Source: Lineus longissimus
Lineage: Eukaryota > Nemertea > Pilidiophora > Heteronemertea > Lineidae
Reading direction: 5' to 3'
Assembly: GCF_910592395.1 (NCBI RefSeq)
Contig: NC_088312.1
Coordinates: 4,772,001-4,836,000, forward strand
DNA: 64,000 bases
Shown piece after piece: positions 39,672 to 64,000 of the stretch. The notes under the pieces were generated by a model. It searched no databases, was not told the DNA's origin, and saw nothing but the letters and a program-made list of their open reading frames with translations. The stretch's first letter is position 1. The number at the start of each line of letters is the position of its first letter. The position numbers and the translations under genes are program-made.

Positions 39672-40322
39672 TCAGGAAAACTGGATCAAGACCATTGTGC
39701 TCTACAGCTCGCAAGAGCTTAAACTAAATCCTAATCAGAAAACTGGATCAAGACCAGTGTGCTCCACAGCTCGCAAGAGCTTAAACTAAATCCTAATCAG
39801 AAAACTGGATCAAGACCAGTGTGCTCTACAGCTCGCAAGAGCTTAAACTAAATCCTATTCAGAAAACTAGATCTAGACCAGTGTGCTCTACAGCTCGCAA
39901 GAGCTTAAACTAAATCCTAATCAGAAAACTGGATCAAGACCAGTGTGCTCTACAGCTCGCAAGAGCTTAAACTAAATCTTATTCAGAAAACTAGATCTAG
40001 ACCAGCGTGCTCTACAGCTCGCAAGAGCTTAAACTAAATCCTAATCAGAAAACTGGATCAAAACCAGTGTGCTCTAAAGCTCGCAAGAGCTTAAACTAAA
40101 TCCTAATCAGAAAACTGGATCAAAACCAGTGTGCTCTAAAGCTCGCAAGAGCTTAAACTAAATCCTAATCAGAAAACTGGATCAAGACCAGTGTGCTCTA
40201 CAGCTCACAAGAGCTTAAACTAAAACCTAATCAGAAAACTGGATCAAGACAGGTGTGCTCTAACTGGATCAAGACCAATGTGCTGTACAGCTCGCAAGCG
40301 CTTAAACTAAATCCTAATCAGA
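39672..40322. repeat. 62-bp satellite array with embedded hairpin
   Basis: About ten head-to-tail copies of a 62-base unit are present, with the word GCAAGAGCTT recurring at 39711, 39773, 39835, 39897, 39959, 40021, 40083 and 40145. Each unit contains AGCTCGCAAGAGCT, a hairpin with 5-bp arms and a GCAA tetraloop. Two sub-variants (GGATCAAGACC and AGATCTAGACC) alternate in the middle, suggesting a two-unit higher-order expansion. The last copies are truncated and diverged. No frame through the unit stays open over the whole array. Confidence 0.95.
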
Positions 40323-45339: not shown

Positions 45340-48300
45340 CTAACTGTTTGCATAAGCCACCTGAATACCCTCCTGCCTATAGTCTTCGTATATTTCATTT
45401 AGCCAATCGATGACTTTCTTGCCATCATTCTGAAGCCAATCTATATTGGTTTGCATCACCTCAAGGGCCTGCTCTATGAAATATTTATGCGATCCATCCT
45501 TCTCTTTCGGGTTTTTCTCCAGCCACTCCAGGAGCTGAAATAAGAAATTATGTGTAGTTTGGTGGCGCTGGCGTGAAAAATGTAGGTGTTTCCTTTATCT
45601 ACTCGAACATTGCGATCAAAAGCATCTTGACACTCAAGATGCTGAGACTGCAACATCCCTACGATCTCTTGCACTGTCATGTTACATGCGGATCGGACAC
45701 ATTAAGGGAAAATCCACACCAACATCAATTTTTTTTTCGGACATGAATCCATGTGTTCTTTCGTCGACCCTGCCAAGAGACCCAGGATCCACCGTGTCAA
45801 GAGCGGACCGGGTGCCAGGTTGACTGACCGAGCCCAATCTAGTGTTCGTCTTGTCTGTATCGGGTTTTGACGGCGTCTTATCCCTACATGTTATTGACCG
45901 ACATCTATAGCTACAAAACATGGAAGAAGTCAAAAAGCAGTCAAAACCACACTTTGTATCTCAATCTAGTTCAGAGTTTTTGAAAGCATCCGTAGTCTTA
46001 ACTGCTATTGAACAATAAATAAATACCATATCTTGATCTTCTTTAGTCGAAAGTTTTTCACAGACTGAATCCAAGACATAGTTTCTGAAGAAAAAAAACG
46101 TGATGATATTACCTGTGTGAATATTTCCTGTAAACTACATGTATATGAAAGTAACTGACCACTCATTCTGACCCATCACGGGGCCAAACTAAGTCCGTGG
46201 TATGATGGAAGAATTACTTTATTTACAGAACACTGGTTAATTGGTAAGATATGGGCGGTTATTTCCGCATAAATAGAGGTTGTCTCAAATAGACATTTTA
46301 TGTCGTGTTATAACTCGAATAGACGTTTGGTGGCGCTTTTCAAATAGACATACACTCAAAAAGACGTTTGGTGGCGCTCGTATCTCAAATAAACATATTG
46401 TCGTGTTTTCTGATTTTTGTGTATAACTCAAATAGACGTTTGGTGGCGCTTTTCAAATAGACATACACTCAAATAGACGTTTGGTGGCGCTCGTATCTCA
46501 AATAAACATATATTGTCGTGTTTTCTGATTTGTGTGTATAACTCAAATAGACGTTTGGTTGCGCTTTTCAAATAGACATACACTCAAATAGACGTTTGGT
46601 GGCGCTCGTATCTCAAATAAACATATTGTCGTGTTTTCTGATTTTTGTGTATAACTCAAATAGACGTTTGGTGGCGCTTTTCAAATAGACATACACTCAA
46701 ATAGACGTTTGGTGGCGCTTTATTTGAGATACGAGCGCCACCAAACGTCTATTTGAGTGTATGTCTATTTGAGATACGACACAATATGTTTATTTCAGGT
46801 ACGTCTCCGTTAAAACGAGCGCCACCAAACGTCTATTCGAGTCATAACACGACATAAAATGTCAGTCTATTTGAGACAACCTCTATTTATGCGGAAATAA
46901 CCGATGGGCGGTTATTTCCGCATAAATAGAGGTTGTCTCAAATAGACATTTTATGTCGTGTTATAACTCGAATAGACGTTTGGTGGCGCTTTTCAAATAG
47001 ACATACACTCAAAAAGACGTTTGGTGGCGCTCGTATCTCAAATAAACATATTGTCGTGTTTTCTGATTTTTGTGTATAACTCAAATAGACGTTTTGTGGC
47101 GCTTTTCAAATAGACATACACTCAAATAGACGTTTGGTGGCGCTTGTATCTCAAATAAACATATATTGTCGTGTTTTCTGATTTGTGTGTATAACTCAAA
47201 TAGACGTTTGGTTGCGCTTTTCAAATAGACATACACTCAAATAGACGTTTGGTGGCGCTCGTATCTCAAATAAACATATATTGTCGTGTTTTCTGATTTG
47301 TGTGTATAACTCAAATAGACGTTTGGTGGCGCTTTTCAAATAGACATACACTCAAATAGACGTTTGGTGGCGCTCGTATCTCAAATAAACATATTGTCGT
47401 GTTTTCTGATTTTTGTAGGTGACCAGCCGACTTTAATACTAGTCTGGACCACCTTCTTTTGTTCTCAGAAAATAACACATATCAAATACATGTATAACAC
47501 AGTGAAGATGAGAATAATGCAAAAAGGAACATACTCTCGTGTCTCGTTCCATCTCTCGAGGACTATTTTAAGCGCAACACGACCTCCGACCGGATTTTTG
47601 GCCACGTTCGAGAATACCGTGTATACGTTGCTGCCACGATCTAACTCGAGCTCTAAATATCTAAAACAAATAAGAAAGTTAATGAAAGATACCAATCTTT
47701 TCAGGTTTCACTTATTCAAACAGAATCAAAGGAACCCATACATTAAACCGTAGACGAATATGTGTGGAGAAGAGGGAACAATTAAAAGGGAGCATTTATG
47801 GAGAGGGAGAAGCTTAGAAAATAAGGTCGGACTATACATGTTTTTTATAGTGATATTCGTTATATTGAACGCCAAGAACCGTTTAGAAAAGAACACAACT
47901 AAATAATTTGCATATAAGTACAGGCGATCACCTCAGAACCACCTGCAATTTCAGTACAGTATATCGGCCGAATCAGAGGCATCCTGAAGCTCAGGCCAAC
48001 ACTCGGCACTATCGACCGTGTTCGAGGGGAGGAGGATACGGCTGACTGTGGATTTTCGAGAATGACTCAGTGGCGAAACAAGGCCAGGCTTTGATGCTTT
48101 GGCGACCTCCTTGAAACGCCACTGAGGCCAGCCAGACCTGCTTACTTCTGAGCATGATCAGCGAAACCATGGAACGACGTATTCAACGTTGAGAAGTTGA
48201 TATACCATGTATCAAGATTGTTGACCATGTTGACACGTAACAAGACTTCGGTCTACATGTATTGATTAAAATGAAGTAAACAGCTCACCTCCTAAGTACC

Positions 48301-51274
48301 CATTCTTCTCTACTACAAGACAAGCCCAAAGTAATATCGTTGACAAGGGAATTATAGACGCCACCATTTTTTTGATATTCATGAAGATACATAGCATAGA
48401 CTTTGTCCCAGGTATCCACAGTGCTACTCTTTACTACTGAGCAGTAGACAGTCCTACGAGCTTCCGCCGGAATTCTGGAATCAAGAAATCGTTATGTCAA
48501 ACTAAAGCCTGAGAAACTATATTTTACCATGGCGGGCAAATACGTCCCTGAAAATGTGGTGACCGATTTTTACCTCACGAAGGCCATTACATCCCCTCCC
48601 TCACCTCTAGAGCCAAGACAAAAAGGCTTGCTGCAGGCCTATATGATGTGAATAATGTGCACGCATTTCTAGACGTTTACATACAAAGTAATTAACATCG
48701 GACCAAATATCGATCCCTGAGGAACTCCACGTAGTCAGCAGTAAAAACATCTAAATCTAAAATGACGCACGGCACATCAGATTGAGTCGATGATTACTCC
48801 AAACGATGGATCATATTGTGAGATGGATCATCATGTTAAAAGGTACCGATTCCTAATCACAGTTCTATATGATGCTTTTTAAGTGAAAAGCAAGAAGTTT
48901 GTATACACCTTGCACTGGGTTGTTTATAGCCATTCCTACTCACGGTGTGGTCGTCGCATCCTTGAACATGTCCTGTGCCTTTTTCAAACAAGGCTTATAG
49001 TCATAGTGGCAAACTGTCGCAAGTATCAGGCCCATCAGCTCCCTGAAAGAAATATGATGATCTGAATCGACATGTTCACACATTATTTCAAATCATACAT
49101 CTTAAAGGGACATACATGTAGCATGCAATATGTTGGTTTTTTACACGAATTTGACTTCCAGCTTGATAATGACTTCTCCAAACAGGATCACTGAAGAATC
49201 ACTGAACTACAGCATAGCTACAGTGCACTTGAACTGAAGGTGCATTTAAAAAAAAACAACCTATTCTATCGCAGCTGCCGGGTCACCTTACTTGCGATGA
49301 TTGGTTATGCCTTTCTCTGTCGCCACATCCCACGCATCGTCACTATACATGTGTCCAATTAACTCCAAAATGTAGGTCTGAAATGCAAAAAAACCGTTCA
49401 ATATCCGATAATGTTCCGATCAGATATGTAGAACTCTCCTGCGTCCATCTTCGACCACCAATAATTCCAATTTTTGCTCTATAAAAACGGTAATCCCGCA
49501 GTATAGATCATGGCCATGACCTTGGCCTAGTGTACGCTGAAAAATAGGTCAAACTGACCCACATTTTTGTCCGATTCCGAGACTGCATGATAAACAATAT
49601 TTACCCTCAGCACTCCATAATGATCCGTATATTGTAGTTTGTCACCGTAGCGTTCGATAGCATTAATGAAAGCAGTCCAAGGATTGGAGTCTTTTTCATT
49701 TTTGAGATAACGGGCCAACTCCAAAGATTTGGAAACGTGAAGTTCGCCGGATCTAGGTAGAAAGGTAGGATATAAGTAATGGTTGCTACGTGTACATATG
49801 TGATCTGTCGGGGAGGGGATGGTGAGAAAGTTTATGGAGTAAGTGAAGAGGGCCCAAGAGACATTTATTTAATTCGGCCGACTGCAGCGCTGATTCGAAG
49901 TCTTTAAAGGAGTATAGCAAAGTGGTAAGATAATTTCCTGATAGCATAGTATTATATAAATCGTAAAATGTATCACATTAAATACAGGAGTTCTAACTCG
50001 TTTTACGGTTAACAGAAGAATGGTTGTAGAATCCTTACTTCACAAGTAAAACTGTGTCGTAAATAATCTCAGCCCGATTTATTGGAGGGATAACCTGAAA
50101 CAGGTAAAATGACAATGTATCATCAAAATACATCAACGTATTACACAGCAGGTCTTATAAAGTGTTGAATGATGAACCTGAAATCTCCGTAGGCCTATGG
50201 TAGATAAAGACGGAGAAGTCGCGTGGGTGTCCTGATATCGTTACCAAAATATATTAGGTAAAAATATGCTGACATGGAAGAATTACCGTGTGGTCCTTGA
50301 TGAGTTGCTCTGCCAGTAACTTCCAATTCGATTCATCATAATTAACGATATAATATCCCTTCATACCGTGGTTACCAAGGATCCAGGTTGTGTCAATATT
50401 ATTGGTGAAATCCAGTTCGGTACTCAGCTCAACTAAAGAAAGAAATGTTTAGTAATGATAACATAAGGAAGATCTCAGGTGGTTCCCTCAAGAAAATCTC
50501 TCCAAAATTGACCAAAACCTTATCCGAATGCTAAAGGTGGCTCGTATAAAAAGTGACGGAAGGTTTGATATATTTCCTTTTATAGAATTCAGAGCAGTAG
50601 TGCCAGGACCAATTAATGATGGAAGTCTGTTTTAAGAAGTTTACTTATAAGTTAGTTTCCAGTCACGAAATGTACGCGTATCCCAAAAACGGGTGAACAT
50701 TCTTCATAATTAAAATCATTACCTTCCGCGCCATGCATCCAAATTGGCGGAGTTTGAACAGCCTCTCCTGTCGCATTGGTTGAGATAAACAGTGGGATAA
50801 CCCAAAGACCTCTGAAAGAAATTGTATAAAGTAAGTAATGAGGGTGGTTATCTAGTTGCAAGCAGACCCAACGTCATTCATAGACCACTACTATATGTAT
50901 TAACGTATGGCTAGCTTATCGAACCCATGTTGACGTTATGCTGTGGTTACAATATTTTGATATTAAAATATTGTATTTCTTGTGCTGATTTTTGCACAAT
51001 TCAGATGTGCTGAAGCGGATGAGCTCAGACAGCGGATGTCAACCCATGCATGTTGAGTCAAAATTTCCTTCCCGATTCCTTACCCGAAATGTGATTTAAA
51101 CTTGTCAGGAATTTCTTTCTTGGGGTCTACGAGGTAGCGCGACTGATTGAGCTTCAAGCCTGTCTCATCATGAAGGATGGTCAAGACTGGGTAGCCGGCC
51201 TGTTGGATCCAAGTAGCCATGAACTCGCCAACATCTACATTCCTTAGATGCAATTGATCGCTGAATTGAAGAGC
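45340..51274 (-). CDS. M1 aminopeptidase exons 11-21 (C-terminal domains)
   Basis: Eleven exons encode the small beta domain (exons 11-13: [21 protein letters not shown] and [12 protein letters not shown]) and the ERAP1-type helical C domain (exons 14-21). The helical domain includes [13 protein letters not shown], the [12 protein letters not shown] pair of cysteines, WDKVYAMY and the final helices LLEWLEKN and [17 protein letters not shown]. The stop codon TAG is at 45342-45340. Exon 20 uses a less common GTATTT donor. Frame and order match family members throughout. The protein ends QVAYANS with no membrane or GPI signal. Confidence 0.92.
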
Positions 51275-54200
51275 CTGAAGAAGACGAAATAAGTGGGGAA
51301 AACAGAGTATTGGTTCATCCTTTCTTGTGATAGATGCGAAATTTATATTCTTTGTAGCGTTTCCTAACCTACTGTGAAAATGTATTTCAGACGAGTATAG
51401 TATTGTACCCTGCGCATGCGAGTCGTTCCAAACAACAGACAACAAAATGAGTTGTCGGGCTCATACCACAGAACAAAATGAGTTGTCGGGCTCATACCAC
51501 AGAACAAAATGAGTTGTCGGGCTCATACCACAGAACAAAATGAGTTGTCGGGCTCATACCACAGAATAAAATGAGTTGTCGGGCTCATACCACAGAACAA
51601 AATGAGTTTTCGGGCTCATACCACAGAACAAAATGAGTTGTCGGGCTCATACCACAGAACAAAATGAGTTGTCGGGCTCATACCACAGAACAAAATGAGT
51701 TGTCGGGCTCATACCACAGAACAAAATGAGTTGTCGGGCTCATACCACAGAACAAAATGAGTTGTCGGGCTCATACCACAGAACAAAATGAGTTGTCGGG
51801 CTCATACCACAGAACAAAATGAGTTTTCGGGCTCATACCACAGAACAAAATGAGTTGTCCCCAACAACAAAGTTACGCTGGTGAGGTAGGCTTTTAGTGT
51901 GGTGGCACTTGGTCTGGCCCAGGCTATGAAGCAAGGTTCGTCTCACTAAACAGCAACGTTTACCTCATTAAACGCGTCATACAGATCATACTGATCAGCG
52001 TTGCCGAATTGATGCGTCTGAAGGAAAATCTGTACGCCATGTTGGAATTCCTTCTCTCCTATCACACCTTCCATCATCTGCAGAACCAAAGAACCCTAGA
52101 AAAGAAGGCGATGTGATCAGGGTATATACTCCAGAGAGTGCGAAATGTTATACATGTAGATATTTTGTTATAGATCTGTTGCATTCACAAAATATTGATG
52201 GCTTGTTGATCCTGCTAATCAGCGCTCGGTTACCTTAGAAAGCATTGGGTGCACTGCAGAGCCAGCCAGCCAGCCAGCCAGCTAACCGAATGTCCGCGAT
52301 CTCGACGGTAAGCTTGACCTACCTTGACGTACGTGATGGAGTCAAAGACCTGGTCGAGTTCAGATTGTCTGACCACACTGTAGTCGATGGGATGAGAGTC
52401 GTGGTAACCATCCATAAAAAAAGCTTGCCTTCGCTTATGCACGTGCGCTTCGACCTGAGGAGGATAACAAGTAATTAGCTCAAAAAAAAACGAACGGACC
52501 TGATACAAAGGAAAAACAAACTGATCGAATAGTGATTGAATACAATTTAGCGGACTTTCGACTGTATTACAAAATGTAACGCCAATGGAGTGAAATTGTA
52601 TTGAGACAACACTGATGCACAGGGCGCATTGTGATATGGCAAGGACAGAATTCATCAGGCTTCCTCCCAGGCCACTTGAACCATGAAGCCTTATCACTTA
52701 CATTACTACTTCGAAACTTGGCCACTTACCGTGCTACTCCCCGGTAAGATATCTTTTGTACTTTTAAAGGTCATAAAACTAGTCATGGCTTCGTTGATCC
52801 AAATATCATTCCACCATTTCGCAGTCACGAGATTTCCGAACCACTGTAAATAATGGATAAACCACTGAAAAGGTGTTCGTCCTTAACCATCTCGTTCTAT
52901 AAACGAAAAGTTGGAATTAGCAATGTTCTTCTCCAACCATTTGCAAGGTAATACAGCCATGCAGTGGGCGTTCTCCCCTGACTGGCAAGTTTTGACCCGA
53001 AGCAATTCTACAATTTCTAGTTCTACAATTTGATAGATAAGCAACAGCAGTTTGCAGTAATAAGCAAATACATGTACAAGTATTCGCCTCCAACCAGTTG
53101 ATAGGAAGGCCCTTCAGTCTACGGTTACTCCCCATTAAAAGCACTGATCAATCAGCAAGTATTCTTCTTCTACAAACTGATATGTTTCTCTATGACCCAA
53201 TACAGTCGAGTTAAATGAGTTCGGTACAGTACAGTACAGTAAGAATGAAGAAAGCGTTTGTACAAGTTTTAGCCAAAATAGTCAAAGAAGGGAACCAGTA
53301 TCATGGAGAATGAGGTAATGTATACTAATAGTGTGCAGCCAAATAAGTAAACATGCATGGGGAAGGAGTTGGTAAGGATTGTTTGGCAAATAAGAAAGAG
53401 GAAGGGACCTTACCTGGTGAGCTACTTCATGGATGACTACATGAGTTACAGACAATCATGTGTCGTAGTTATCACTTCCAGGGTCGAGCGTCAGGCAATA
53501 TACTGCGAAGGCGATCAGGGTCCCAGTGTTCCATTCCGCCACTAGCGAAGTCGGCAAGGCGATATCAAACGAAAAAATTCATGCCGTCAAGGAATTTTAA
53601 GACAAACCCTACCTGGTGAGCTACTTCATGGATGATAATTCCCGTTACTGTTTCCCAGGTGTTGCTATCGTCAACTTTAGGATCGAATGGCAGGCAATAT
53701 GCTGCGTAGGTGATCAGCCCCCAGTTTTCCATTCCACCCCAAGCAAAGTCGGGCACGGCGATATGGTCTAAACGAAAACACTCATATCGTCAAGGAATTT
53801 TTAGGACAGACTCACCTGGTGAGCTACTTCGTGGATGACAACTCCCGTTACTGTTTCCCAGGTGTAGTTATCGTCAACTTTAGGATCGAATGGCAGGCAA
53901 TATGCTGCGTAGGTGATCAGCCCCCAGTTTTCTATTCCACCAGCTAAGAAGTCAGGCACAGCGATGTGGTCTATGTGCAAGCAGTCGATATGATGCTGAG
54001 AAATTTATTTTCAAAACAATACTGGATTCTAACCAAAGAAATTTCTGGCAAGAGTATTCTTAGGTCATCCAGGCAACTGAGCTTGACTGCATCCATTCGT
54101 ACAATGTAGTTACATGCACATGTTTATACTAAACTTCCAAACTTAACTCCTGCTTTGAACTTAGTAGAAAATTAGGCAGGTACATGTACATTGTTTCTAT

Positions 54201-57200
54201 TGCACCGTCATGAACTAAGGTCAAATCGTTTTATTCAAATCTTACAACGAACTTACCCATCTTGGGAAGGGTGTAGTTTATCCCGGTATATTCTGTAAAC
54301 CATTCTGTCGTCTTGATTGCTGTCTCCAACGCCAGTTTGGTTTTGTCCAGCTCCTCTTCCCGCCACCAGACACGAACCTAAAACGAGTGAGGACAACTGA
54401 TCGCATTTACATTCACCGACCACTTTAACTTTCAAAAATCGTTCAGCTCAGATGAGTTGGGGTTCATTTACCTCACTTGACGAAGCTGGTCGTATCATGA
54501 AAACAACAGAAATGACAGAACTCTCGTGTGTCAAACTGAGCTACCCTCTCCTTCTTCTTCTTCAACGTTCGCTCTGCACCAGAAGGTGTTACTATTCAGT
54601 GATTATTCCACCTCCAAGGCGGGTTGCGGAGAGGTTTTTTACATGCAACTATACGGTTAGGCACAGCTATCAAGACGATCTCGTTTCTCTTTTTAAATCG
54701 CGTTGAGTGAATATCAATAGTTTTACCGAATACTGTACTGTATAGTACACGACTTTTTTAACATCAAACTTCTTCTTTTTCACTTTTTCACTTTTTCACT
54801 TTCTCTTTTCCATTCCCATTTGACTGTACACACCTTAATTCCATCCTTGGTGTACCCCTGCGTGAACTTGTAGTCCGTGATGGCGATAGCAACGAGGTAG
54901 GTTGGCATTACCGGCGTCTTGTCAAATGTATCGGCGAACCATCCATTTTCCCTGGGGAGGTTGGTTAGAAGAATGATTTTGAGAATACATGTATAAGACA
55001 TTAATCAAATGGATCACTGACATGTAAGACGAAGCAATGTTTTTTGGTCGTTTGAACTAATATCGTATATACCCCGTCCAGTGTCAATGTTGCATAGAGA
55101 AAGATTAGTTATAACTGATACTGGGGGAGAGGATATTTTGAAGGGCAGCAAGCATAAGCAATGTTCAGCCCTATCAGTTGATTATGGTTATCACGTAATC
55201 TTTAACTTACAACAATTCCGATTTGAGCTGTGGCATGTTGGACAAAGCAACGTGAGATGATCTCCTCAACACTGTGATACTGAAGGTCGCCTTCAAGGCA
55301 GGTTCGTCAAAGCAAGGGAACATCCTCCTGGCATAGTTAGGTTCCATTTGTGTTATAGCCATGTAGCTGAAAACGGAGCGAAGGGTGCAGAAAGTACGCA
55401 TGCCTTAAAGGGAGGAAATATTACGCGGACGTATCATATATATTTATACATGGAAAGGGAGTTCGTGATCGGTGATTGCCGCGCCAAATATGCGGCCAAT
55501 TATTGAAAATCGGAACATTTCACCCAAAGAGATGAAGGGAACACGTATAACAAAGGTAATGGTTAATCCAAAGGGTTACTCAAGAGAGGTTCCGCAAACT
55601 GACGAAAAGGCGAAAAGACGTTTGCAGCATAAACTTTATCATCACTTTTGCACCCAACCTCAAACAGATAATTAACTTACTGTCGTGTTCCGTTCACCAC
55701 ATATCCAGTAAGGTAGAGGCCATTTAAACTCGGCACCAGCTTGCCAGTAAAAGATACTATACTTATGGTATACTCGTCTCCTTTTTTCAGTCGTCTGTTC
55801 AGGCGGAAAGTGACAAAGCTTCTTTCTTCATCCGTATCCATGGACGTGACCTTGAATCGGCCTTGACCTCCAGATAGATGGACATCATCCTGGATTATAT
55901 GGAGGTCCATCACGTGGAGCTTGATTCTGTTTGTTGGACGGCGACATTTGAAATGAATGGTGACGTTCCCTTCGAAGTTGAAATTTGCTATCTCTTCTTG
56001 GTAAATGTCTGGTCTGATAGTCAGGTCGTAATGGATCGGAACAAGGGTGTCCTGGAGCAGGTTGTGGTTGTTTTTGGCGGGGGCATAACGCTTGTAACGA
56101 TCTATAGGATGAGAAACAGGCACATTTGCAAATTGGCTTTTCTTATGTTAAGAACTACATGTATACTCCGGACGCAGTCGATCGGCCTTGTCTCTCCCCT
56201 GTTATTAAGGATGACGACCAGACTGCCAAGGAAGTCTATAAAGAACGTCTACACTATGCATATAATCCGTTTATACCAGTATACACATAAGCAAGTAGAA
56301 GAAAACATATAGGAGAAGGAGTTAAGGTACGGTTTGTTTGTCAGTTGATGAAAAAGAAACACGGATAAGGTGATGTTAGGCTATATCAATACCTGCTGAG
56401 TAAAAAGAAGAGGACAGGTATGGAAAAATTGGCATGGTTTGTTTCTGATACTAAACAACATCAACGGTAATTTGCGTTATTTATACGGAAGGGATGAGAG
56501 AATGTTTTGATAAGTTTCAAATGAGCTGTGGTGTAAAATATAGTTATGAACATGTACGGTCATTTCCTTCGTCGGTAAGCCAGTTTCGACGTTGTCATTT
56601 TTGAAAATGACAAAAGTACTTGTCTCCTAAATCCCCTGTGCCTTTGCCCTGTCGACTGTCTAGATTCGGGAATGGAGGGGTCATGCGGAGAATTATATGC
56701 CTAATTAACTTACTTCGCTGCTGTAAATCTGGATGTGGCAATACAGCCAGAGCTAGCCCTAGAAAGTAATGAATATGAGTTAGCAGAACGGAGCCGGTGT
56801 CACATCTGTCAGTGTTTGCAATGCTTTGCCCCTAATAACTTCAGGGTGCGACATTTCAGCAGTCGCGAGGGGAGTCGGCAATATTCCGTGCGGACAACAT
56901 ATCCATACCAATGACGGCGTCTCACTTTAGCAATAGTGAAGCCGTTGGTTGGCTGGTCCTGCAGCGGATGTCAGTATTCCGTGCGTGTGCGGCAAGGCTT
57001 GTCGAATGCATTAAACAGCTACATTCCCTCAATAAACCCTTTAGGTTTGAGAAAGCCTACGTTTGTCGTTTATGACGTCATGCCCTTAGAACAACCATTA
57101 TCTGAAAGCTTACATTGTACATATATACCGTTAAATCCAGGTACATGTAATACGTCGTTAATTTGTTGGATATGTGGCAGGACTTACCGAAGAAGCACAC

Positions 57201-57224
57201 GAAAATCAATGCTTGGTAGACCAT
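45340..57224 (-). CDS. Secreted M1 zinc aminopeptidase (APN family)
   Basis: Complete gene of 21 exons, with the frame kept across every junction. Exons 5' to 3': 57224-57188, 56758-56714, 56101-55681, 55366-55211, 54951-54834, 54377-54257, exon 7 (53970-53816 or 53767-53613), 52843-52730, 52454-52323, 52095-51964, 51274-51084, 50811-50723, 50432-50287, 50094-50039, 49752-49605, 49377-49292, 49042-48944, 48474-48289, 47660-47535, 46084-46027, 45534-45340. The product is about 936 residues, normal for aminopeptidase N relatives, which remove N-terminal amino acids from peptides. It starts with a signal peptide ([17 protein letters not shown]) rather than the type II membrane anchor of vertebrate APN. 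No C-terminal GPI-type hydrophobic tail is seen, so secretion is inferred. Landmarks are [10 protein letters not shown] (~187-196), GG(I/M)ENWG (~310-316), HEVAH (346-350), the third zinc ligand Glu369, and the transition-state Tyr431 in ITYVKG. All catalytic residues are present. Confidence 0.95.
46256..46903. mobile_element. Foldback element with internal satellite units
   Basis: Terminal inverted repeats of about 82-86 bp begin CGGTTATTTCCGCATAAAT at 46256 and end with the reverse complement at 46903. The element is flanked on both sides by ATGGG (46251-46255 and 46904-46908), a likely target duplication. Inside are about three tandem units of 113-115 bp, each with two copies of CAAATAGACGTTTGGTGGCGC, and then a short inverted part. 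There is no transposase frame. It sits in intron 19 of the aminopeptidase gene. Confidence 0.85.
46909..47416. mobile_element. Second, one-ended foldback copy
   Basis: It starts directly after the second ATGGG with the same left terminus and runs through about four internal ~114-bp units. It stops near 47416 at TTTTCTGATTTTTGTAG, without the right inverted terminus. It may be a truncated element, a tandem product of unequal exchange, or an insertion sharing the first element's target site. A GTTTGGTGGCGCT core also occurs alone at 45557-45569 in the next intron. Confidence 0.75.
51440..51858. repeat. 31-bp minisatellite in intron 10
   Basis: About 13 nearly identical head-to-tail copies of a 31-base unit containing AACAAAATGAGTTGTCGGGC fill much of the intron between exons 10 and 11. 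Variants are single substitutions (TTGTCGG to TTTTCGG twice, AACAAA to AATAAA once). High identity points to recent expansion. It has no spacers, so it is not a CRISPR array. Confidence 0.95.
51964..52843 (-). CDS. M1 aminopeptidase exons 8-10 (rest of active site)
   Basis: Exon 8 (52843-52730) starts immediately after HEVAHQ with [19 protein letters not shown]. The Glu of INEA is the third zinc ligand, exactly 18 residues after the second His. Exon 9 (52454-52323) contains the catalytic Tyr in DSITYVK. Exon 10 (52095-51964) holds the helix [15 protein letters not shown]. All three are phase 0 to phase 0 and together complete the thermolysin-like domain. Exon 8 must be joined to either 7A or 7B to make an active enzyme. 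Confidence 0.93.
52260..52283. repeat. CCAG tetranucleotide repeat
   Basis: Five to six copies of CCAG lie just downstream of exon 9, inside the intron. This is an ordinary microsatellite. Confidence 0.85.
53414..53565 (-). pseudogene. Broken third copy of catalytic exon 7
   Basis: A third tandem copy lies about 199 bp below 7B and is clearly homologous at the DNA level. Its donor side is intact (HEVAHQ codons then CAG|GTAAGG). The acceptor AG is deleted (gatatcaaacg where 7B has gatatggtctaaacg), single-base gaps break the frame around the GGME segment, and a TGA interrupts the middle. It cannot serve as a coding exon. Its presence shows the exon was duplicated at least twice. Confidence 0.85.
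53613..53767 (-). CDS. Catalytic exon 7B (GGMENWG/HEVAHQ)
   Basis: This exon has exactly the same length (155 bp) and phases as 7A, acceptor cgtttag and a somewhat weaker donor CAG|GTAGGG. It encodes [11 protein letters not shown] with the canonical Met, then the SNTW variant and [10 protein letters not shown]. It differs from 7A at seven residues: 308, 309, 312, 334, 335, 343 and 344. Because the length is not a multiple of three, joining 7A to 7B would shift the frame, so the two should be used one at a time. All zinc and catalytic residues are intact. Confidence 0.85.
53816..53970 (-). CDS. Catalytic exon 7A (GGIENWG/HEVAHQ)
   Basis: This 155-bp exon has acceptor cacatag and a strong donor CAG|GTGAGT. 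It enters in phase 1 and leaves in phase 0. It encodes residues 300-351, including the exopeptidase loop and the first two zinc ligands with the catalytic Glu. The loop reads [11 protein letters not shown], so the usual Met of the GxMEN motif is Ile here. It is followed by [22 protein letters not shown]-type sequence. In M1 enzymes this loop binds the substrate N-terminus and helps shape the S1 pocket. It is the first of two intact tandem alternatives and the intron to exon 7B is only 48 bp. Confidence 0.88.
54257..57224 (-). CDS. M1 aminopeptidase exons 1-6 (signal peptide, N domain)
   Basis: Exon 1 (57224-57188) and the 45-bp exon 2 encode the signal peptide, splitting it after residue 12. 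Exon 3 (56101-55681, 421 bp) encodes most of the N-terminal beta-sandwich domain, starting at the family-typical [13 protein letters not shown]. Exon 4 carries the M1 hallmark [13 protein letters not shown]. Exon 5 has the [12 protein letters not shown] stretch and exon 6 the segment VRVWWREE to YTLPKM that leads into the active site. Donors are GTAAGT or GTGTGT types and all acceptors are AG. Exon 6 ends in phase 1, which sets the requirement met by both exon 7 copies. Confidence 0.92.
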
Positions 57225-60028: not shown

Positions 60029-63000
60029 CTGAAAAGGGAAGCAAGACCATTTAAAACTTATCTGTCATGTCTAGGTCATCAATGCTTTTTCGCAAGTTAG
60101 AATAGCCCGAAAAGTTAGATTACGATAACCAATGACTTTTTCCACAAGTAAATCTTTCAGAATAAATGGTCGTACATGTTGATGACGTAGATGACGACGA
60201 CAATCTTACTGTAGAATAAGATGTTACCTCCGATTTCTTTCTAAGTTTCACTCTCTCGGGATTTATATTCCTTTCGCACAGCTAAGCGTGGCTGTAACAC
60301 TTACTCTGGTATCCACTCTCCGTTCCATCATCCGGTCACGTCTCGTGGCGTCCTTGGCTGAGAGGTCAAATCGGATAGTCTCATGTCGTCTGCTTGAGTC
60401 AAGTTTACGGAGTGCCAGCTCGGCAACGCGTCTTGTCTCTTGGCGGCGTTCGATTCTTCTGCTGTCAGTTTCAGTTTCCCGTCGGTCATCACGTCGTTCG
60501 ATGCGTACATTACGCCGTTCCATTCCTCTAGAAGCGGATTCGGTTTCGCGTCGGACATCACGGCGTTCCATTCTCCTAACATCAGGTACGTTGGCAGCCC
60601 GTCTTTCCATTCGAACGTCTCGGCGTTCCATTCTTCTAGAAGTTGCTTCAGTTTCTTGTCGGACCTCACGGCGCTCCATACGGACATCACGGCGTTCCAT
60701 TCTCCTGACATCAGAGTCACTGGCAGCCCGTCTCTCCATACGGACATCTCGACGTTCCATTCTCCTTGTGGCTGGCTCAGTTTCTCGTCGGACATCATCG
60801 CGCTCCATACGGACATCACGGCGTTCCATTCTCCTGGTGGCTGGCTCAGTTTCCCGTCGGACATCACGGCGCTCCATGCGGACATCTCGGCGTTCCATTC
60901 TCCTGGTGGCTGGCTCAGTTTCTCGTCTGACATCACGGCGCTCCATGCGGACATCACGGCGTTCCACTCTCCTAGTGACTGGCTCAGTTTCTCGTCGGAC
61001 ATCGGCACGGCGTTCCATTTTCCTGACACTATCAGGTTCACTGGCAGCCCGTCTTTCCATGCGGACATCACGGCGTTCCACTCTCCTAGTGACTGGCTCA
61101 GTTTCTCGTCGGACATCGGCACGGCGCTCCATTCTCCTGACACTATCAGGTTCACTTGCAGCCCGTCTTTCAATGCGGACATCACGGCGTTCCATTCTCC
61201 TGACATCAGGTTCACTGGCAGCCCGTCTTTCCATGCGGACATCACGGCGTTCCATTCTCCTGGTGGCTGGCTCAGTTTCCCGTCGGACATCACGGCGTTC
61301 CATTCTCCTAGTAGCTGGCTCAGTTTCTCGTCGGACATCACGGGGTTCCATTCTCCTGGTGTCTGGCTCAGTCTCCCGTCGGACATCACGGCGCTCCATC
61401 CTCCTGGTGTCTGGCTCAGTTTCCCGTTGGGCAACACGGCGCTCCATACGGACATCACGGCGTTCCATTCTCCTGGTGTCTGGCTCAGTTTCCCGTCGGA
61501 CATCACGGCGTTCCATACGGACATCACGGCGTTCCATTCTCCTAATGGCTGGCTCAGTTTCCCGTCGGACATCACGGCGCTCCATTCTCCTGACATCAGG
61601 TTCACTGGCAGCCCGTCTTTCCATGCGGACATCACGGCGTTCCATTCTCCTAGTGGCTGGCTCAGTTTCCCGTCGGACATCACGGCGCTCCATTCTCCTG
61701 ACATCAGATTCACTGGCAGCCCGTCTTTCCATGCGGACATCACGGCGCTCCATTCTCCGGGAGGCTGGCTCAGTTTCCCGTCGGACATCGCGGCGTTCCA
61801 TTCTCCTATTGGCTGGCTCAGTTTCTCGCCGGACATCACGGCGTTGCATTCTCCTAGTGGCTGGCTCAGTTTCCCGTCGGACATCACGGCGCTCTATACG
61901 GACATCACGGCGTTCCATTCTCCTAGTGACTGGCTCAGTTTGTCGTCGGACATCGGCACGGCGTTCCATTCTCCTGACATCAGGTTCACTGGCAGCCCGT
62001 CTCTCCATGCGGACATCACGGTGCTCCATTCTCCTGGTGGCTGGCTCAGTTTCCCGTCGAACATTACGGCGCTCCATACGGGCATCACGACGTTCAATTC
62101 CCCTAACATCAGGTTCACTGGCAGCCCGTCTCTCCATGCGGACATCACGGTGCTCTATTCTCCTGGTGGCTGGCTCAGTCTCCCGTCGGACATCACGGCG
62201 CTCCATACGGACATCACGGCGTTCCATTCTCCTGACATCAGGTTCACTGGCAGCCCGTGTCTCCATGCGGACATCACGGCGTTCCATTCTCCTGGTGGCT
62301 GGCTCAGTTTCCCGTTGAACATCACGGCGTTCCATGCGGACATCACGGCGCTCCATACGGACATCACGGCGTTCCATTCTCCTGGTGGCTGGCTCAGCTT
62401 CCCTTTGAACATCACGGCGCTCCATACGGACATCACGGCGTTCCATTCTCCTGACATCAGGTTCACTGGCAGCCCGTGTCTCCATGCGGACATCACGGCG
62501 TTCCATTCTCCTGGTGGCTGGCTCAGTTTCCCGTCGGACATCACGGCGCTCCATACGGACATCACGGCGTTCCATTCTCCTAACATCAGGTTCACTGGCA
62601 GCCCGTGTTTCCATGCGGATATCACGGCGTTCCATTCTCCTGGTGTCTGGCTCAGTTTCCAGTCGGACATCACGGCGTGTCATGCGGGCATCACGGCGTT
62701 CCATACGGACATCACGGCGTTCCATTCTCCTGGTGGCTGGCTCAGTTTCCCGTCGGACATCACGGCGCTCCATACGGACATCACGGCGTTCCATTCTCCT
62801 GGTGGGTTGCTCAGTTTCCCGTCGGACATCACGGCGTTCCATACGGACATCACGGTGTTCCATTCTCCTGACATCAGGTTCACTGGCAGCCCGTCTTTCC
62901 ATGCGGACATCACGACGCTCCATTCTCCCGGTGGCTGGCTGAGTTTCTCGTCTGACATCACGGCGCTCCATACGGACATCACGGCGTTCCATTCTCCTGA

Positions 63001-63601
63001 CATCAGGTTCACTCGCAGCCCGTCTCTCCATACGGACATCACGGCGTTCCATTCTCCTGGTGGGTGGCTCAGTTTCCCGTCGGACATCACGGCGTTCCAT
63101 ACGGACATCACGGTGTTCCATTCTCCTGACATCAGGTTCACTGGCAGCCCGTCTTTCCATGCGGACATCACGGCGCTCCATTCTCCCGGTAGCTGGCTGA
63201 GTTTCTCGTCTGACATCACGGCGTTCCATACGGACATCACGGCGCTCCATACGGACATCACGGCGTTCCATTCTCCTGACATCAGGTTCACTTGCAGCCC
63301 GTCTCTCCATACGGACATCACGGCGTTCAATTCTTCTGGTGGTTCGCTCAGTTTCCCGTCGGACATCGCGGCTTTCGATACGGACATCACGGCGTTCCAT
63401 TCTCCTTGTTGCTGGTTCATTTTCTCGTCGGACATCACGGCGTCCCAAACGAACGCTCCTATCTCCTTTCATCCGGGTCTCCTGTGCTGCCCGAACATCA
63501 GTGTTGAGACGCCTGGCCACATCGGCATCTGTCTTAACCATTGATATCATCACCAGTGCCGTGACGGCAAGGCCTAACATGCCCACTCTTGTTCGCTTCA
63601 T
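59552..63601 (-). CDS. Secreted arginine-rich heptad-repeat protein
   Basis: Three coding exons: 63616-60305 (ATG at 63601; 1099 codons, phase 0 donor AGA|GTAAGT), 60028-59937 and 59645-59552 (TGA at 59554-59552). The product is about 1160 residues. Residues 1-25 form a typical signal peptide (KRTR then a hydrophobic run to MISMV). Residues ~60-1030 are repeats of MERRDVR heptads separated by RRETEPAT or RRAASEPDV cassettes. Arg is over a third of the repeat, partly balanced by Glu and Asp, so the protein is strongly basic. The end is non-repetitive and includes EKYANPQPEYLLDVYQKRKD and a hydrophobic AILIGLTGYLTF. I do not recognise a family. A matrix, mineral- or polyanion-binding role, or a multi-site precursor cut at RR, would fit but is inference. 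Retention of the first intron would add 13 codons to a stop at 60263. Confidence 0.8.
60500..63440 (-). repeat. Coding minisatellite of the arginine-rich protein
   Basis: The exon is a mosaic of 21-bp units (MERRDVR) joined by ~24-36-bp linkers, forming higher-order blocks of roughly 60-130 bp. All length changes are multiples of three. As a result, long frames are also open in other registers: 1034 codons on the plus strand at 60440-63544, 676 codons on the plus strand at 60288-62318, and several minus-strand frames of 84-519 codons. These have neither signal peptides nor fitting splice sites and are treated as by-products of the repeat. Confidence 0.9.
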
Positions 63602-63616
63602 AGTTGCAAACGTAAC

Positions 63617-64000
63617 CTGAAAGTAGAAAATGAAACAATATCAAAATAAAAGCAATTTAACCTAAAATATATTTCTGACGTATACCCCCCCCCCCCCCCC
63701 CCCCACGCAGTATTCCCACTTAAACCTTAGTACATTACTATGTCACAATGTCCAAGCGATACCATATACGCCACTTCCAACTCCTACTTTATCACGCTGG
63801 AATCGAGCCATGATATCTATCTTCAACACACCACACCGTGATGACTTTCTCCACAACGGCGGCTTTTGTATCAATACCGTAATGACACAGATCGCCGGAA
63901 CAGATATACTCTTTGCAATCACAAAAAGGGACCGTTAAACATTACAACGGATAGGTATAGGGCTACCGATGCAGCCCGATTTTAATTTTGTCATCATAGT
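63617..64000. other. Upstream flank of the arginine-rich gene
   Basis: An acceptor-like tttcag|GTTACG at 63616 lies 15 bases before the ATG, so an untranslated first exon may lie to the right, perhaps outside the window. I see no convincing donor for it here. A run of 20 Cs occupies 63685-63704. Confidence 0.5.
63685..63704. repeat. Poly-C run
   Basis: Twenty consecutive Cs on the plus strand. A homopolymer of this length is prone to sequencing error, so its exact length is unreliable. Confidence 0.95.

Follow-up and report, generated by a model that had tools for sequence, protein, structure and literature searches.

Tandem copies of a catalytic exon form a candidate mutually exclusive pair in a Lineus longissimus M1 aminopeptidase gene

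In a predicted M1 aminopeptidase gene of the heteronemertean ribbon worm Lineus longissimus, the exon carrying the catalytic loop and the HEVAH zinc motif (exon 7) lies in a tandem array of three copies, two of them intact (7A and 7B) and one decayed (7C). The array is real, and its sequence makes 7A and 7B a candidate pair of mutually exclusive exons for which use of both is plausible. The window analysed is a 64,000-nucleotide stretch of the genome (assembly GCF_910592395.1, contig NC_088312.1, forward-strand positions 4,772,001 to 4,836,000), and all coordinates, including those in Table 1, are positions within it.

Table 1. Features of the M1 aminopeptidase gene and of its exon 7 array
Feature	Position	Strand	Description
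Whole M1 aminopeptidase gene	45340..57224	-	Gene model with exon 7 in alternative copies; 7B form = P0001; Pfam domains
Exon 6, upstream neighbour of the exon 7 copies	54257..54377	-	121 bp; ends in phase 1
Exon 7A, intact	53816..53970	-	155 bp; ...HEVAHQ; Ala309, Ile312
First gap, 7A to 7B	53768..53815	-	48 bp, GT...AG; in-frame TAA if retained
Exon 7B, intact	53613..53767	-	155 bp; ...HEVAHQ; Trp309, Met312; copy in the public annotation
Second gap, 7B to 7C	53564..53612	-	Homologous to the first gap; acceptor AG of 7C lost
Exon 7C, decayed third copy	~53414..53563	-	Lacks the acceptor AG and carries an internal TGA; its 1-nt indels offset one another
Exon 8, downstream neighbour of the exon 7 copies	52730..52843	-	114 bp; zinc ligand Glu369; INEAMT for the family's LNEGFA

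The host gene and its product

The gene was rebuilt from start codon to stop codon with 21 exon positions, and all of its introns, which measure 192-1450 nt when the interval from 7A to exon 8 is counted as one intron, are GT...AG. Either copy of exon 7 alone gives an open 936-aa protein. A Pfam search, for which the 7B form was the only query, returned Peptidase_M1_N (162 bits), Peptidase_M1 (222) and ERAP1_C (186), all above the cut-off. The product resembles aminopeptidase N, ERAP1/2 and PSA in its three domains and in the residues that it keeps, which in both the 7A and the 7B form are the HExxHx18E zinc site (H346, E347, H350, E369), the glutamate of GxMEN, Tyr431 and the domain-I residues Gln174 and Glu176; functions for Tyr431, Gln174 and Glu176 are presumed from the M1 family, in part from PMC10343166. 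By zinc site and domain set the protein is a predicted M1 aminopeptidase (gluzincin).

The 7B model is identical, letter for letter, to a public protein named 'aminopeptidase N-like [Lineus longissimus]' (P0001), which served as the query for an alignment of 101 relatives drawn from 120 listed proteins, 18 of more than 1150 aa having been left out. The Lineus protein departs from many near-invariant positions: the 7B form differs at 10 of 98 such columns and the 7A form at 11, the median relative at 1, and just one of the 101 relatives at 10 or more, in a comparison biased in the relatives' favour by the choice of the columns on the relatives themselves. The enzyme encoded here appears unusually divergent for its family. 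Exon 7 also reads YAA where the family usually has YRE.

Exon 7 is a tandem triplication

Tandem Repeats Finder reported an array of 203-bp period at 53492-53973 (2.4 copies), and a repeat search returned a direct repeat of 172 nt with 90% identity as well as a three-copy family at spacings of 199 and 203. Tandem repetition of this kind lies far beyond chance. 7A and 7B are identical at 139 of 155 bases and share the same phases (in 1, out 0). The third copy is approximately equidistant from the other two, with 115 matches, 29 mismatches and 17 gap columns against 7A and 117, 28 and 15, respectively, against 7B; despite its lost acceptor and internal TGA, it retains HEVAHQ and a high-scoring donor. 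The gaps are related as well, with 39 of 47 aligned bases identical and three gap columns. Three copies of exon 7 stand in tandem here as a 203-bp repeat, and one of them, 7C, is dead.

The re-derived gene model agrees with a preliminary description of this DNA on the two intact 155-bp copies, their coordinates and phases, and the 48-bp GT...AG gap between them. The tandem pair reported there is real but incomplete, the decayed third copy having been overlooked. A GxMEN-type loop and HEVAH had been assigned to both copies; HEVAH is present in both and the loop type is common to both, but the strict GxMEN match belongs to 7B (GGMEN) only, and 7A reads GGIEN, in which the Glu and Asn of the motif are present and the Met is replaced.

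Assemblies often go wrong at tandem copies, and the array might in principle be an artefact of assembly or of haplotypes. PacBio-type reads are usually far longer than such an exon array. The three copies stand at clearly different divergence, in order and within unique flanks, and P0001 is placed on a 23.9-Mb contig. For the published assembly (PMC8593623), from which the window presumably originates, the reads are given as PacBio Sequel II and a single haplotype as deposited. We regard an artefact as very improbable.

Further tandem arrays lie in introns of the same gene, at 51441-51859 (31 bp x 13.5), 46309-46719 (113 bp x 3.6) and 46958-47416 (115 bp x 4.0), which argues for a tendency towards tandem duplication at this locus. 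Elsewhere in the window, a 62-bp tandem repeat occupies 39676-40262 (9.5 copies, 94% matches), and a complex nested tandem repeat at 60263-63640 holds a long open reading frame on each strand, of 1125 and 1048 codons between stops, neither of which gave a Pfam match above the cut-off.

One copy of exon 7 per functional message

An mRNA containing both 7A and 7B encounters a stop at codon 369, one containing neither copy stops at codon 312, and one in which the first gap is retained stops at codon 356, the fifth codon of the gap. Because joint inclusion, joint omission and gap retention all lead to an early stop, each functional mRNA carries exactly one intact copy, and the anatomy of the gene forces one-or-the-other use. 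The preliminary description had anticipated a frameshift on joint inclusion and loss of the active site on joint omission, and its frame argument was borne out. It had further held that a choice is forced: the anatomy does permit just one copy per functional mRNA, but this does not imply that a choice is made, and 7A may be dying as 7C did.

As adjacent, homologous exons of like length and equal phase whose joint inclusion is nonfunctional, 7A and 7B show two features of mutually exclusive exons. At the level of RNA, the class is defined by splice-junction reads from each exon that bridge the other (PMC5740500).

Alternative routes through the region were also considered. An acceptor-like AG at 52896 (-) precedes exon 8 by 53 nt and has a score of 8.84 in a matrix built from the gene's own splice sites. 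Skipping both copies and entering at this AG keeps the frame by length (53 nt) yet leads to a stop at codon 304, joining the same AG to 7A or 7B leads to a stop at codon 375, and entering 7C through an AG at 53541 runs into a stop at codon 328; all three routes were rejected. When an AG at 53943, inside 7A, is taken as the acceptor, the frame stays open and a 927-aa protein results that lacks the nine residues (DHIAVPDFL) before GGIEN. Use of 7A from this inner AG may represent a further form.

Splice signals and the spacing of 7A and 7B

Splice sites were scored with a position matrix derived from the 19 donors and 19 acceptors elsewhere in the gene, and leave-one-out ranges were obtained from the same sites. 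The donors of 7A (8.86) and 7B (6.63) both fall within the donor range (4.06-11.61). The acceptors of 7A (-3.42) and 7B (0.19) both fall under the acceptor range (0.50-12.53), 7A by far, and the 7A acceptor is the weakest of the 21 scored; the AG at 53943 inside 7A scores 3.93, against -3.42 for the exon's own acceptor. Weak acceptors fit alternative exons, and they also fit an exon in decay. A search of 52730-54377 for inverted repeats (minimum 14 nt), which might form competing RNA structures that govern the choice, returned one, of 25 nt at 72%, which links the two flanking introns.

Introns of about 48 nt are spliced in some animals. The shortest other intron of this gene measures 192 nt, compared with 48 nt for the first gap. 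The gap contains a single yTnAy branch-point candidate, predicted 25 nt from the 7A donor, and with a total gap length of 48 nt, every possible branch point within it would lie under the limit of about 50 nt from donor to branch point given for steric exclusion (PMC7969005). PMC5740500 likewise takes a donor-to-branch-point spacing of <50 bp as its steric criterion, and 57 (9%) of the human clusters there have it. In OGDH exons 4a/4b and in alpha-tropomyosin, exclusion is imposed by branch points that lie less than about 50 nt from the donor upstream of them, at 25-41 nt in the case of human OGDH (PMC7969005); those branch points were mapped, whereas the one in the 48-nt gap of 7A/7B is predicted only. 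The predicted distance falls below the steric limit and supports the earlier suggestion that the gap is probably too short to splice. We propose that joining of 7A to 7B would also be hindered, the gap being too short to place a branch point at sufficient distance from the donor.

A different role for 7A would follow if the two copies were joined nonetheless: the resulting mRNA, with its early stop at codon 369, would be degraded, and 7A would adjust how much enzyme is made, not which substrates it prefers. The donor of 7A scores well, and joining reads are reported for 83 of 377 human frame-shifting clusters (22%) and for 18 of 20 clusters in a cross-species set (PMC5740500). This reading must contend with a gap that is short to splice beside the gene's other introns and with the weak acceptor of 7A, and we consider it improbable.

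Residues exchanged between the two forms

The 7A and 7B forms differ at residues 308, 309, 312, 334, 335, 343 and 344. Residue 309, which is Ala in 7A and Trp in 7B and stands just before GxMEN, aligns with Pro333 of ERAP2 (chain 7p7p_A; match starting at 326). This residue, together with Met260 of E. coli PepN and Tyr267 of LTA4H, has been described as a highly variable 'gatekeeper' at the S1 entrance (PMC6222927), and in PSA the small Ala315 at the gatekeeper site opens the pocket (PMC10343166). Trp at this position was found once in 232 motif matches from 230 proteins, the single case being P0001 itself. At residue 312, the Met position of GxMEN, all 101 of the 101 aligned relatives have Met, as do 230 of the 232 motif matches, and the Ile that stands there in 7A had no parallel in either set. 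Judged by these comparisons, each copy carries one unusual residue, 7B at the gate and 7A at the invariant Met.

Choice of exon would swap the S1 gatekeeper between Ala309 and Trp309, and a switch of specificity is plausible. The 7B form would have a Trp gate and a narrow pocket, as with Tyr in LTA4H, and the 7A form would have Ala and an open pocket, as in PSA. We think it less likely than not that the locus holds a full splicing switch in the catalytic centre, in which two enzymes differing only in the catalytic exon would let tissue or stage pick the N-terminal residues that are trimmed.

Constraint and decay of the copies

The same array could have arisen by exon birth and death, through slippage or unequal crossing-over, with 7B working, 7C dead and 7A recently silenced or unused, and we give this reading close to an even chance. 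7C shows that copies here die, the arrays in the introns indicate that the locus duplicates readily, and 7A combines a weak acceptor with an Ile at an invariant Met. What this reading has to accommodate is that 7A keeps its frame, donor, acceptor AG and zinc motif, and that the pattern of substitution does not single it out.

Between 7A and 7B there are 16 substitutions (dS 0.22, dN 0.086, omega 0.40); dN and dS from this pair alone do not differ significantly (P = 0.11), and an omega of 0.40 also fits one constrained and one free copy. Divergence of the gaps is similar to dS and gives a similar neutral yardstick. When synonymous sites and gap were combined, non-synonymous changes were fewer per site (10/119 versus 14/81, P = 0.08), and with a run of differences at 23-29 counted once the comparison became 6/119 versus 13/81 (P = 0.013). 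With 7C as outgroup, eight differences are derived in 7A, five in 7B, and three could not be assigned to a branch. By codon, the polarised sites comprise five non-synonymous changes (four of them in one run) and three synonymous in 7A, and four and one, respectively, in the annotated copy 7B; 7A is therefore not the sole changed copy. A 64-nt run of identity between 7A and 7B suggested gene conversion when all 16 differences were counted singly (P = 0.001), and this was set aside as weak once the run at 23-29 was treated as one event (P = 0.03).

Neutral decay was simulated from 7B with indel-to-substitution ratios of 0.10, 0.15 and 0.25, on a branch of about 0.10, that is, half of the dS of 0.22 or of the gap divergence. 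A neutral 7A would still be intact with probability 0.10, 0.055 and 0.015 for the three ratios; on a shorter branch of 0.06 the values were 0.26, 0.17 and 0.08, and on a longer branch of 0.14 they were 0.04, 0.015 and 0.003. These figures favour past use of 7A, and a copy silenced recently would look alike.

Annotation and relatives

The sole public protein found is the 7B form, which fits exon birth and death. In the protein collection, which is clustered at 90% identity, P0001 has one member sequence and no isoform suffix; a further M1 protein from Lineus longissimus, P0008, bears the name isoform X2. The main text of the genome paper (PMC8593623) contains neither 'RNA-seq' nor 'transcript'. 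A search with residues 296-375 of the 7A form found nothing nearer to 7A than P0001 (91%) among the best 120 of 285 proteins. P0010 and P0121 outscored P0001 through two copies of the region each and were rejected as closer relatives of 7A (58% and 55% versus 91%). P0121 (Strongylocentrotus purpuratus XP_011671721.1, 691 aa) is a predicted aminopeptidase N in which the M1 core (GAMENWG to HELAHQ...WLNE) occurs twice in frame, in nearly identical copies 91 aa apart, and is either a duplication of gene model or assembly or a second case of core duplication. Among the 120 protein matches listed there was no orthologue, the top identity after P0001 being 35%, and none with the exon array was found. 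The missing record of 7A is an absence from annotation and not proof of absence.

Discussion

Use of 7A is opposed by the public protein being of the 7B form only, by the weakest acceptor in the gene, by Ile312 and by the lack of an orthologous array among the listed matches; in favour of function, the frame of 7A stayed open while 7C died. On balance we hold functional use of 7A to be possible, at somewhat less than an even chance. Our best explanation, which as a whole is equally tentative, is that tandem triplication left 7B as the default exon and 7A as a still-functional alternative, minor or restricted to certain tissues, whose S1 pocket is opened. Choice of 7A would replace Trp by Ala at the S1 gate and Met by Ile in GxMEN, and the set of N-terminal residues taken by the enzyme would then differ.

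Mutually exclusive tandem exons form a large class that is already described. Tandemly duplicated exons are found in about 10% of animal genes, according to a 2002 study quoted in PMC9013439, and 236 human mutually exclusive exon events have been analysed (PMC9741552). Swaps inside enzyme cores are also known already. The two mutually exclusive exons 6a and 6e of coq-2 in Caenorhabditis elegans and other helminths, at 134 nt each, are like 7A and 7B of equal length and not divisible by three, and they exchange a part of the enzyme core beside the substrate such that the choice changes the substrate (PMC7434440). The coq-2 case differs in that the enzyme is a polyprenyltransferase, both isoforms are established by RNA and genetic evidence, and many species have the alternative exon (PMC7434440), whereas 7A and 7B are a candidate pair defined by sequence. 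In ACSL6 and ACSL1, choice within a pair of mutually exclusive exons exchanges a short gate motif and alters an aromatic residue, much as proposed for the gate of 7A/7B; these are human acyl-CoA synthetases with a Phe to Tyr change and isolated transcripts, and no zinc peptidase is involved (PMC1543647).

The preliminary description knew of no M1 enzyme with this arrangement, and our search likewise found no M1 aminopeptidase with mutually exclusive or tandem-duplicated exons in the literature covered, mostly outside subscription journals. A paper on splice isoforms of a moth APN mentions 'mutually exclusive' twice, both times of Dscam, and the word 'peptidase' is absent from the main texts of PMC5740500, PMC9741552 and PMC9013439.

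Should 7A prove to be unused, the locus would still display a tandem array of exons partway from gain to loss, in which the dead sister copy 7C serves as an internal control. If both exons are used, the gene would provide a natural swap of a specificity-gating residue by alternative splicing, which was not found for the M1 family in the literature searched, and two matched enzymes with which to test how the gate residue sets the choice of substrate.
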